Assembly: GCA_024280395.1 (NCBI GenBank)
Contig: JAJRQG010000109.1
Span: 1-64,000, forward strand
Length of the DNA: 64,000 nucleotides
Reading direction: 5' to 3'
Source of the DNA: Gammaproteobacteria bacterium
Lineage (GTDB): Bacteria > Pseudomonadota > Gammaproteobacteria > Xanthomonadales > Marinicellaceae
Position numbers and translations under genes: made by a program. This document shows positions 40,830-56,379 of this stretch, piece by piece. The notes under the pieces are model-generated. The model had not been told where the DNA came from. It did no database searches and worked only from the letters and a program-made list of their open reading frames with translations. Within the stretch, counting starts at the first letter, position 1; each line of letters opens with the position of its first letter.

Positions 40830-41207
40830 ATGGCATTTCGTGAATTTACCCGATCAGATCGCATGTCCGCACAAATACTGCGCGTTGTCGCAGTAGCTGT
40901 GCGGGAAGAGTTCGAGTACGACGATGAGTTGAAACATGTTGCTATATCGGATGTAGATGTGACCAAAGACTTGTCTATTGCAACGGTTTATTTTAATACC
41001 TTGTTTCCAGAACAGGCCAAACAGGCCGCTGCTATACTCAAAGAAAATGCACCATTTATTCGTTCAATCGTTGCGGGTAAAATCCGTGCAAGGCGTGTTC
41101 CTGAATTGCGTTTTGTTTATGATGCCTCACTAGAACGCGGTGCAAATTTGGAATCCTTAATCAGTAAAGCACGTGACAGCGACCCAGGTTTTGAAGAAGA
41201 AGAGTAA
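40830..41207 (+). CDS. rbfA: Ribosome-binding factor A
   Basis: FTRSDRMSAQILRVVAVAVREEF...VRSIVAGKIRARRVPELRFVYD-like. Confidence 0.94.
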   Translation: MAFREFTRSDRMSAQILRVVAVAVREEFEYDDELKHVAISDVDVTKDLSIATVYFNTLFPEQAKQAAAILKENAPFIRSIVAGKIRARRVPELRFVYDASLERGANLESLISKARDSDPGFEEEE

Positions 41208-42126
41208 TTCCAAAGGGCAATACAAATCATCGTGGCAAGATGTCCATGGATTGTTTCTGCTAAATAAACCTACTGGTATCACATCAAATCAAGCCTTGCA
41301 AAAAGTCAGACGAGTTTTCAATGCAAAAAAAGCAGGCCATACTGGATCACTGGATCCAATGGCAACGGGATTATTGCCTTGTTGTTTTGGTGATGCCACC
41401 AAAGTTGCAGGACTAATGCTCAATGCCGACAAGGTGTATATTGCAGAATGTGAAATTGGCAGTCAAACCGACACGGGTGATGCCACGGGCACAGTGGTAA
41501 AAACTTCGGACAAAGTTAGTCTAACTGAGCAAGAAATAAAAATCGCAACAGAAAAACTAACTGGCGACATCAAACAAATTCCCCCCATGTATTCAGCCTT
41601 GCACCACAATGGCAAACGGTTGTATGAATTGGCAAGAGCAGGGATAGAAGTAGATCGACCGGCACGAGAAATCACTATTCATCAATTTAAAGTTCTAGAA
41701 ATTGGAAGCAATTCACCACAAACCATCAAATTTGAAATTAAAGTATCCAAAGGCACATATATACGTACCTTGCTCGAAGACTTTGCCAAAATCAATGGTA
41801 CGGTTGCACACATGACCAGTTTGCATCGCACACAACTGGGTATTCTAAAAGGCAATATGTTGACTATCGAAGACCTAGAACAAGCCGAAAATTCTTTTGA
41901 CTTATTTCAATCAATGGACACCGCTCTGATTGAATACGAGAGAGTACAACTCAACCCAGAACAGATTCAAAACCTCATACATGGCAAACGCTTCAACTGC
42001 GATTATCAACCCGCCATCTACAGAATCTACGATGAAAACAGCAAATTCATAGGCCTAGGCGAAGCCCAGCACAACGGCCAATTTAAAGTTAAAAATCTAT
42101 TTTTGAAATCTTATCAAGATAAGTAG
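41173..42126 (+). CDS. truB: tRNA pseudouridine(55) synthase TruB (start uncertain)
   Basis: GLFLLNKPTGITSNQALQKVRR, AGHTGSLDPMATGLLP; GTG start overlaps rbfA by 35 nt. Confidence 0.94.
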   Translation: MTATQVLKKKSNSKGQYKSSWQDVHGLFLLNKPTGITSNQALQKVRRVFNAKKAGHTGSLDPMATGLLPCCFGDATKVAGLMLNADKVYIAECEIGSQTDTGDATGTVVKTSDKVSLTEQEIKIATEKLTGDIKQIPPMYSALHHNGKRLYELARAGIEVDRPAREITIHQFKVLEIGSNSPQTIKFEIKVSKGTYIRTLLEDFAKINGTVAHMTSLHRTQLGILKGNMLTIEDLEQAENSFDLFQSMDTALIEYERVQLNPEQIQNLIHGKRFNCDYQPAIYRIYDENSKFIGLGEAQHNGQFKVKNLFLKSYQDK

Positions 42127-42183
42127 TGTGATTTTAATAAATTGTGAAATTATAAATTAATACAAATATAGATTTGTAATATT

Positions 42184-42273
42184 ACTCATATCGGGTAGTT
42201 GGCTTCAGTCAACACTTTTATGATATGGCCAAGGTTTTATGGGTTGACTGAAGCCAACTACTCAAATATGAGT
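42184..42273. repeat. REPIN-like element: two inverted GTAG-palindrome units inside a longer inverted repeat
   Basis: GTAGTTGGCTTCAGTCAAC (42195-42213) / GTTGACTGAAGCCAACTAC (42243-42261), perfect 19-bp arms; outer arms ACTCATAT / ATATGAGT. Confidence 0.75.
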
Positions 42274-42397
42274 CTTTTAATGTTCATAGTTGAGTTTTGA
42301 ATATGTAGACTTCCCTTAAATGTAAAAAAATCATTTAACAATAGATATTCTGTCGCATGTGGGTTTTAATACGTTAATTACATTATAAATTTGCGGG

Positions 42398-42784
42398 ATG
42401 AAAAACACACCAATCAAAATCACTTTATTCTTCATTATCTTCTCATTGTATTCTTGTACAAAATTTGGACCTGAGCACGAAAAAGCTTGGGAGTTAATAG
42501 ACAAAGGTGCTTTGTTGATCGATGTTAGAACCAAAGAAGAGTTCCGAGGTGGACATTTGGCCAGTGCACTCAATATTGAATACGAAAATATTGCCCAAAT
42601 TAGCCAAGCAATTGGGCAAGATAAAAACCGCTCCGTGGTTTTGTATTGTCGCTCTGGTAATCGCGCATCGGTGGTTTTAAGTGAATTGTCAAAATTGGGT
42701 TATAACAATATTTACAATGCAGGTGGTTTGAGTGCCATGCAAGCAGCTTTAGAAAGTCTTAACTCGATTAATAAAGACAATTAA
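42398..42784 (+). CDS. Rhodanese-like domain lipoprotein
   Basis: Lipobox LYSC; LIDVRTKEEFRGGHLASALNI; YCRSGNRASVV. Confidence 0.88.
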   Translation: MKNTPIKITLFFIIFSLYSCTKFGPEHEKAWELIDKGALLIDVRTKEEFRGGHLASALNIEYENIAQISQAIGQDKNRSVVLYCRSGNRASVVLSELSKLGYNNIYNAGGLSAMQAALESLNSINKDN

Positions 42785-43380
42785 TGATTTTCAAAACACT
42801 CACAATTTCTATTTTATTTAGTTTGTTGATTTCATGTTCGGAGCCTGAAGATAGAACCATAACAATTTCTGCATGTGCTAAAAGTCTAAGTAATGGAGAA
42901 GTTGTCGAGTGTGATGAAAATGCAGAATCAAGTTTAGACATTACCATAAAATTTTTTAATAATTTAGATAAAATCAATCCAGGCCCAAAAATTCCAGCAC
43001 TTCATGAGTATCATACCGCTGTAAATGTAAATGAGAAAGGAGTGATTGAATTAAAAAATGGTCAGAAAATAGCTTTTGCAGGTATGCAATGTAACTACAT
43101 TGACTTGAAGAAGTATATAGATGGGTTTATGATTAAAGACAAGGATGCCAGAATTGTATATTTGCCAACTGGATACACAAAAGAAAATATTGTGTTTGCA
43201 TATATTTGGGAAGTATTTCCCGATGTTGAAAGGGAATATAAACAACGAGGTTGGGGAAACTATGGAAACCCAACCCATGAAACTGTTTTAGTCAGCAAGT
43301 GGTGCAAACCAGTAGAGCAAGAAGGGCACAAGTTCCACAAAAGATTCACCAAGATAAACACCTTTGCAGAGACACGATAA
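42784..43380 (+). CDS. Hypothetical lipoprotein
   Basis: Lipobox LLISCSEPED; ATG overlaps upstream stop. Confidence 0.65.
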   Translation: MIFKTLTISILFSLLISCSEPEDRTITISACAKSLSNGEVVECDENAESSLDITIKFFNNLDKINPGPKIPALHEYHTAVNVNEKGVIELKNGQKIAFAGMQCNYIDLKKYIDGFMIKDKDARIVYLPTGYTKENIVFAYIWEVFPDVEREYKQRGWGNYGNPTHETVLVSKWCKPVEQEGHKFHKRFTKINTFAETR

Positions 43381-43424
43381 TTAATATTTGGAATACACAT
43401 TTCAGACGATGAAAGGCACAACTA

Positions 43425-43844
43425 ATGGCAAAAGTTACACTATTGAAACCCGAAATATCAAAACTTGATTTAACGTTGTATCAATCCAAAGTTCCAGCGG
43501 GATTTCCTTCTCCTGCTACCGAATATTTGGGTGATACTTTGGACTTGAATGACTATCTAATCAACAATCCAACGGCTTCATTTTTTGCCAAAGTGGAGGG
43601 AGACAGCATGATTGGTGCGGGTATTTTTGAAGGGGATTTATTGGTTATTGATAAATCTTTAAATGCCAAGCACAAGGACATTGTGATTGCTTCGGTGAAT
43701 GATGAGTTTACTGTGAAGCGTTTAGATACCAGAGATGGGATCCAATTAATTGCCGAAAACACCGCATACAAGCCAATAAAATTAACGGGTGAAATGGAAT
43801 TTTCTATTTGGGGAGTGGTCACTGGCGTGGTTCGCAAGTTTTGA
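43425..43844 (+). CDS. umuD: UmuD-like SOS mutagenesis protein (LexA/S24 family)
   Basis: PAGFPSPATEYLGDTLDLNDYLI cleavage-site region, VEGDSMIGAGIFEGDLLVID catalytic Ser, TVKRL. Confidence 0.93.
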   Translation: MAKVTLLKPEISKLDLTLYQSKVPAGFPSPATEYLGDTLDLNDYLINNPTASFFAKVEGDSMIGAGIFEGDLLVIDKSLNAKHKDIVIASVNDEFTVKRLDTRDGIQLIAENTAYKPIKLTGEMEFSIWGVVTGVVRKF

Positions 43845-43869
43845 TAAAGCCCATGATTAAACTACGAAC

Positions 43870-45126
43870 ATGATAGCTATTTGTGATGTTAATAATTTTT
43901 ATGTGTCTTGTGAGCGGGCGTTTAATCCTGCGATTTGGCACAAGCCCGTTATTGTGTTGTCTAACAACGATGGTTGTGCGGTGGCACGTTCCAATCAGGT
44001 AAAAAAACTGGGCATAAAAACAGGCGACCCCGTGTTTAAAATCAGACATTTAATTGCCAAGCACAAAATTCAGGTATTTTCTTCCAACTATATACTCTAT
44101 GGCGATATGTCGCATCGGGTCGATGATATTATTGCCCAATATTCGGATCAGGTTGAAAATTACAGCATTGATGAGTCTTTTCTTCGCTTTGATGGCTTTG
44201 AACACTTGGACTTAACCGAGCATTGCCAAAAAATGGTCAAACAAATTTGGCAATGGCTAAGTCTACCTGTTTGTGTTGGTATTGCTCCCACAAAAACATT
44301 GGCGAAAGTCGCAGGATATTATGCCAAGAAGATGAAAATATCAGGCGGTGTATTGGAATTATCACATGATTGGCAAATTCAAAAAGCCTTAAAAAAATTC
44401 CCTGTAGGCAAGCTTTGGGGCGTGGGTCGCAGAGGCAAAGAGCAGCTAAATAACATGGGGATTTATAGCGCATTAGAATTAAGAAACGCCGATCTTAAAA
44501 CCATGCGAAAAACCTTTTCGGTGGTGATGGAACGCACCATCATGGAATTGCGCGGTATCAGTTGTATTGCCTTTGATGCCGATCCCGAAAAGAAAAAACA
44601 AATCGTTTGTACCCGTTCGTTTGGCAACAAAATCCAAGAACTAAAACCCTTGCAAGAAGCCATTGCCTATCATGTTACTAGAGCTTGCGTCACTTTGCGC
44701 GAACAAGGTTCGGTTGCCAAATCCATTAATGTCGGACTCACCACCAGTCATCACAATATTCAATACCAACAGCACACACAATCACGAACCATACCACTGC
44801 CACAAGCCAGCGATTACACGGCTGATTTTTTACATGCGGCAAGTCTCGCTTTGCAACAGTTGTTTAAATCAGATCAACGTTATAAAAAGGCTGGCATTAT
44901 GTTGGCTGATATCAGTGATACAAATACCGTTCAATTGGATATGTTTAACCAGTCATCAGGCAGAAGCAACGATTTAATGAAGACATTGGATTCAATAAAT
45001 ACAAAGTTTGGCAAAGGCTCTTTGCGCAGTGCCCAAGAAGGTTTTAGCCAAAAATGGGCCATGCGCGCCAATACCAAATCGCCAGAATGCACGACCAACT
45101 GGAACCAGTTGATCACTGTGTCATAA
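43870..45126 (+). CDS. umuC: DNA polymerase V catalytic subunit UmuC
   Basis: AICDVNNFYVSCERAFNP, VVLSNNDGCAVARS-type, YSIDESFL. Confidence 0.95.
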   Translation: MIAICDVNNFYVSCERAFNPAIWHKPVIVLSNNDGCAVARSNQVKKLGIKTGDPVFKIRHLIAKHKIQVFSSNYILYGDMSHRVDDIIAQYSDQVENYSIDESFLRFDGFEHLDLTEHCQKMVKQIWQWLSLPVCVGIAPTKTLAKVAGYYAKKMKISGGVLELSHDWQIQKALKKFPVGKLWGVGRRGKEQLNNMGIYSALELRNADLKTMRKTFSVVMERTIMELRGISCIAFDADPEKKKQIVCTRSFGNKIQELKPLQEAIAYHVTRACVTLREQGSVAKSINVGLTTSHHNIQYQQHTQSRTIPLPQASDYTADFLHAASLALQQLFKSDQRYKKAGIMLADISDTNTVQLDMFNQSSGRSNDLMKTLDSINTKFGKGSLRSAQEGFSQKWAMRANTKSPECTTNWNQLITVS

Positions 45127-45128
45127 AA

Positions 45129-56335: not shown

Positions 56336-56379
56336 GTAGTTGGCTTTAGTCAACACTATTGAAAAGGTTGGCTGAAGCC
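56336..56379. repeat. Decayed second copy of the REPIN-like repeat
   Basis: GTAGTTGGCTTTAGTCAAC - 12 nt - GTTGGCTGAAGCC; outer part of the right arm lost. Confidence 0.65.

Follow-up and report, generated by a model that had tools for sequence, protein, structure and literature searches.

Organization of the Locus Downstream of truB

In the window (the whole 64,000-nt stretch of DNA analysed here), a 90-bp repeat element follows truB, the last gene of the rimP-nusA-infB-rbfA-truB operon, in a tandem gene context. The following features are relevant.

41173..42126 (+): truB; its stop codon lies 57 nt upstream of the REPIN
42184..42273 (unstranded): complete REPIN (90 bp) of the long-spacer class (29 nt), in which outer arms frame two inverted REPs
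42184..42191 (+): left outer arm ACTCATAT, belonging to the family consensus ACTCATATCGG-GTAG
42195..42213 (+): left REP; GTAG tag at 42195-42198, imperfect palindrome TTGGCT-TC-AGTCAA at 42199-42212, closing C
42214..42242 (unstranded): spacer of 29 nt separating the two REPs
42243..42261 (-): right REP, exact reverse complement of the left one
42266..42273 (-): right outer arm ATATGAGT, family consensus CTAC-CCGATATGAGT, with CCG altered in this copy
42398..42784 (+): ORF for a rhodanese-like lipoprotein, downstream of the REPIN and in tandem with truB
56336..56379 (unstranded): second, truncated REPIN; intact left REP at 56336-56354, 12-nt spacer at 56355-56366, partial right arm at 56367-56379

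The left REP reads GTAGTTGGCTTCAGTCAAC. As the original prediction had described, the arms are exact reverse complements separated by 29 nt, each unit consists of GTAG and the TTGGCT-TC-AGTCAA palindrome with one G.T pair, and the outer arms bring the element to 90 nt. The inner TAAAACC/GGTTTTA palindrome, present in the spacers of long-class sister REPINs, is degraded in the truB copy. DNA folding of the 90 nt gave -26 kcal/mol against -6.4 for shuffled sequences (z -10.1).

The 19-nt arm motif (up to three mismatches) occurs three times in the window, compared with 0.05 occurrences expected from window shuffles. The inverted pair at truB had been recognised earlier, but the third copy, the intact left REP of the truncated REPIN (partial right arm GTTGGCTGAAGCC), had been missed. 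Neither the third REP family (GTAGTGGCTTCCCTTGTGGGAGC) nor other congeneric REPs were found in the window.

The 3.0-kb stretch at 42127-45128 comprises the REPIN, the rhodanese lipoprotein gene, a gene for another lipoprotein, and UmuD- and UmuC-like genes. It parts truB from a PLP-enzyme gene; the truB/PLP-enzyme gap is only 61-65 nt in the congeners G009 and G007. None of the seven readable relatives carries the REPIN behind truB; this copy is unique to the host genome. An empty-site comparison at truB itself yielded no clean site, since the relatives carry other genes after truB.

The REP Family in the Host Genome

The host assembly (G000; 3.77 Mb, 158 contigs) contains 63 copies of the 19-nt arm at up to two mismatches, and the reversed-pattern control gave none. 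These copies are scattered over about 40 sites, and some of them surround a Y1 gene. Twenty close pairs were found, all of them head-to-head, while about 0.07 close neighbours are expected by chance. The gaps within these pairs are 11 nt (nine pairs), 13 nt (two), 26 nt (three) and 29-31 nt (six). Both the genome-wide count and the inverted pairing at a few fixed spacings therefore came out as had been anticipated, except that the spacing falls into two size classes (11-13 and 26-31 nt). Because the long spacers hold the inner TAAAACC...GGTTTTA palindrome, the family can be said to have a short and a long form. Its full consensus is ACTCATATCGG-GTAG-TTGGCTTYAGTCAAC-spacer-reverse complement.

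GTAG REPs are defined by a GTAG or GTRG tag at the 5' foot of an imperfect palindrome. Among these copies, which were selected at up to two mismatches, both G residues of the GTAG tag are kept in 63/63, and its T and its A each in 62/63. The stem G.T pair is retained in 52 of 63 copies; owing to this pair, one of the two strands folds into the better hairpin, which agrees with the strand choice described for TnpA-REP (PMC8266576). According to a simple ORF caller, all 20 REPINs fall outside ORFs; 15 of them are flanked by tandem genes and three by convergent genes. Two degenerate single REPs are located inside ORFs. A tandem array with a 56-bp unit carrying the REP variant GTAGTTGGGTTTAGCCAAC was observed at C72:19288-19418 (L057).

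Some REPs harbour a 150-bp MITE-like element with CAGACTGTGAAAGTATT termini and an apparent TAAA target duplication. Six copies in the host genome were examined; one further end-like match lies at C19:30040.

C19:22875 (L055): MITE-like copy
C37:18875 (L007): MITE-like copy
C47:24319 (L010): MITE-like copy
C69:4245 (L022): MITE-like copy, orientation opposite
C150:12883 (L046): MITE-like copy
C46:9271 (L039): MITE-like copy

In 6/6 copies examined, the element sits at one fixed REP position (GTTGACTAAA|element|TAAAGCCAAC). It occurs in both orientations, in REPINs that have different spacers. No autonomous partner of the element was identified. REPs are already known as IS targets (PMC1525189).

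The REP-Flanked RAYT Gene

The original prediction was correct that no RAYT gene is present in the window; the gene sits on another contig, where four exact REP copies bracket it.

C131:68606-69115 (-): RAYT gene, 170 aa, NHIH motif, Y148, REP-flanked

The four REPs are at 68524(-), 68575(+), 69140(-) and 69191(+). The gene is enclosed by the head-to-head pair 68575/69140, each member of which has a tail-to-tail partner outside. The finding that was to speak against a REPIN, only two copies in the genome and no RAYT homologue, is thus not what the genome holds.

The protein matches Pfam Y1_Tnp with an E value of 2e-9. Its HUH motif is NHIH, and its Y motif is Y148-I-E-N-N, ending in NNA instead of NNP. 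A profile of the RAYT and its relatives retrieved solved IS200/IS605-type transposases (E 2e-8), and NCBIfam NF047646 (REP_Tyr_transpos) matched with 55.5 bits (E 5.7e-15), which is below the cut-off of 80 bits. Of the two features of TnpA-REP class 2 (Quentin 2018), the HUH motif is present and Y---NP is replaced by YIENNA, with Ala for Pro; the protein was placed in no numbered subclass of that scheme. Basal members of its own clade retain NP in the Y motif.

The RAYT is present in a single copy, as in a REPtron and unlike an IS: only one close match was found in the genome, and the second-best shares 33% identity over 51 residues. At least six Y1_Tnp genes exceed the Pfam cut-off in the host. 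Among the other Y1 genes (C6, C27, C57, C150, C120, C46) are IS200-type genes, two long NHYH forms at C6, one form of 326 aa and one of 237 aa; a form of 169 aa at C27 has CCGTAGGG/GGGCGGAC hairpins on its flanks.

A Y1 gene flanked by the same REPs, the hallmark of a REPtron, is found at C131 of the host and at C55 of the congener G006. With the missing RAYT located on C131 between four exact REPs, the REP set and this gene together form a complete REPtron.

Comparison of Orthologous Sites in Congeners

G006 carries the same REP and a RAYT that is 82-83% identical to that of the host, at another locus. In 20-kb comparisons of the two RAYT loci, only a REP-RAYT-REP block of 650-700 bp was homologous. 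This block (C131:68524-69209 in the host, C55:31938-32572 in G006) has moved, and its RAYT is reversed relative to contig orientation; alternatively, recombination between the inverted REPs of the block could have caused the flip. The congener G010 is collinear with the G006 RAYT locus on both sides and has a solo REP where G006 has REP-REP-RAYT-REP. Either insertion at the REP or loss between flanking REPs would account for this difference.

Between metK and ahcY, the host has 116 nt including a REPIN, against 28 nt without one in G003, G004 and G010; in G009 this gap contains a decayed remnant, and in G006 it is occupied by a REPIN of another family. Similarly, the iadA-cphB gap is 108 nt with a REPIN in the host and 26 nt in G002. 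The third REP family lies between iadA and cphB in G006 and after iadA in G008. Between hmgA and fahA, the host and G010 share the same REPIN, and G006 carries the third family. Each of the three gaps tested has thus been occupied by at least two REP families. The occupation of the same gaps by unrelated REPIN families (L268-L287, L013, L240, L262) suggests that positions just past stop codons may serve as shared landing sites. The presence/absence patterns at orthologous sites support the putative mobility of the REPINs.

The RAYT Clade and Its Variable Tags

GTDB genomes were scanned with the RAYT alignment, and close relatives were found in Lysobacterales, Methylococcales, Thiomicrorhabdus, Sulfurovum, Sulfurimonas and Malaciobacter. 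In the maximum-likelihood tree, 20 relatives form one Gammaproteobacteria/Campylobacterota clade (support 100/99) separate from E. coli RayT and from the classic RAYTs of the order; the host RAYT belongs to this clade. The tags were read from the close-clade flanks and from a near/far count of tagged hairpins. An automatic tag caller based on conservation on the two hairpin sides was abandoned: in tandem REP arrays both sides are conserved, which made its output noisy.

The flanking hairpins of the clade share a common plan, GG-NNNN-6-bp stem-2-nt loop. Their four-base tags are GTAG (host and G006), GTAG/GTTG (G010 C109), GGTT/GGCA, GGCA/GGAA, ATTG or ATCG/TAAG, AGCG/AGCA, AATT, GGCG, ATGT, AGGC and others. 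The GG before the tag is mostly kept; one member (L136) lacks it and a few flanks are unclear. It should be noted that the strand of the tag side was set by this common GG, which makes the tag-side reading partly circular. At the position of Gln95, through which E. coli RayT contacts GTAG, every clade member but one has Glu, Asp, Ala, Ser or Thr; Trp94 and Arg104 are retained.

Across a broader set of 69 RAYT loci, the density of GG[AG]NCG hairpins is 2.37 per kb up to 400 nt from the gene and 0.24 per kb at distances above 1 kb, a tenfold difference, whereas GTRG hairpins are hardly enriched (0.67 versus 0.49). In the classic RAYT set, GTRG hairpins are enriched near the gene (2.03 versus 0.68). 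RAYTs across phyla (L139-L207; Verrucomicrobia, Planctomycetes, Acidobacteria, Chloroflexi and others) are accompanied by hairpins tagged GG[AG]NCG, typically GGAGCG, not GTAG.

RAYT subclasses without GTAG (2.6 and class 3) were already noted by Quentin 2018, so that non-GTAG REPs are not new in themselves. No description of branch-by-branch tag variation inside one RAYT clade was found in the RAYT/REP literature examined. We tentatively propose, at somewhat less than even odds, that the four-base guide of this clade switched repeatedly while the outer GG and the hairpin plan stayed largely fixed. The GTAG of the genus would then be one drifting state, possibly regained by convergence, and not the classic ancestral GTAG; replacement of Gln would allow such drift. 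If this is true, the choice of cleavage site should follow the tag. The proposed guide/cleavage-site rule is known from mutated Marinomonas REPs, and the clade, with natural enzyme/tag pairs whose guide differs between branches, would make it testable with native pairs.

Proposed Origin of the truB Copy

Based on the above results, the element after truB is most probably (probability about 0.93) a non-autonomous REPIN of two inverted GTAG REPs, spread in trans by the single REP-flanked RAYT (TnpA-REP) of the genome. The data directly show dispersed repeats, head-to-head pairs at fixed spacing, extragenic placement, a cognate RAYT bracketed by identical REPs, and presence/absence patterns at orthologous congener sites, for REPINs as well as for the entire REP-RAYT block. 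Points against this reading are a copy number that is low for a REP family, the RAYT score below the NCBIfam cut-off, the NNA ending of the Y motif, and the lack of a clean empty site for the truB copy. The REPIN interpretation of the original prediction is borne out by the genome count, the inverted pairing and the REP-flanked RAYT. Mobilisation by a RAYT is supported as well, but not close kinship of this RAYT with the classic GTAG enzymes, in view of its separate, well-supported clade.

By analogy with systems described in the literature, the RAYT would bind GTAG and the hairpin on single-stranded DNA, nick beside the hairpin strand-specifically with Tyr148, and copy or move the two-hairpin unit. 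The truB copy is most likely a passenger that landed in a tolerated site 57 nt beyond the stop codon. Any effect on the 3' end of the truB mRNA would be secondary and is unproven.

It is improbable that the REPIN was domesticated at truB for a host role (3' mRNA protection, a gyrase or an IHF site). REPs have known roles at mRNA 3' ends in enterobacteria, and the hmgA-fahA REPIN is conserved between the host and G010; however, the truB copy occurs in the host genome only and shows degradation of both the right outer arm and the inner palindrome. It is very improbable that the element is a non-mobile hairpin of the operon, selected in place as a plain transcription terminator or to stabilise the 3' end of the mRNA. 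Its position after the last gene, in tandem context, would suit such a role, as would the strong RNA folding of the 90 nt (-46 kcal/mol, z -8.5) and a single weak terminator-like match formed by the left REP alone (0.3 expected). Against this, the sequence recurs at some 40 sites and around a Y1 gene, the hairpin is missing after truB in the readable relatives, and no T-run follows the long stem, where an intrinsic terminator has a GC-rich stem followed directly by a T-run. The Rfam comparison gave no result. It is hardly credible that general recombination or another element (e.g., the MITE/IS inside some copies) spread the repeat, with the RAYT as a bystander: several REP copies are joined to the MITE-like element and the RAYT family scores are modest, but most copies lack the MITE, and in relatives, too, each RAYT is linked in a family-specific way with the hairpin that flanks it.

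The mobility of REP systems has so far been inferred mostly from their distribution. To this the present data add, for a little-studied lineage, a complete REPtron together with orthologous empty sites.

Comparison with Known Systems

The family described here is a new REP family, while REPINs and REPtrons as a kind are already known. Like the REPINs of Pseudomonas fluorescens SBW25 (Bertels and Rainey 2011, PMC3116915), it has two inverted REPs as a unit, extragenic placement, characteristic spacings, cognate REPs beside the RAYT gene, and singlets that are decayed remnants. The REP sequence is unrelated, the copies are far fewer, and the first-residue spacing is 30-32 and 45-50 (shorter units) rather than the 71 and 110 bp of SBW25.

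With GTAG repeat families 1-24 (Di Nocera 2013, PMC3733652), it shares the terminal GTAG, short stem, 2-nt TY loop, HH dimers, placement downstream of genes and the REPtron. In contrast, its palindrome was assigned to none of the listed families, and its RAYT clade has mostly non-GTAG tags.

E. coli RayT with REPtron Ec and the Marinomonas REPtron Mb (Corneloup 2021, PMC8266576) have the same HUH and Tyr core, the Trp and Arg of the GTAG-contact region, a G.T pair or other stem irregularity, and a strand-specific hairpin. The RAYT studied here differs from E. coli RayT by Glu in place of Gln95, by NNA in the Y motif and by its separate clade in the tree. Finally, IS200/IS605 TnpA elements likewise combine a Y1/HUH enzyme with subterminal hairpins and a guide tetranucleotide, whereas here a single RAYT copy without an adjacent tnpB is accompanied by independently dispersed REPs.
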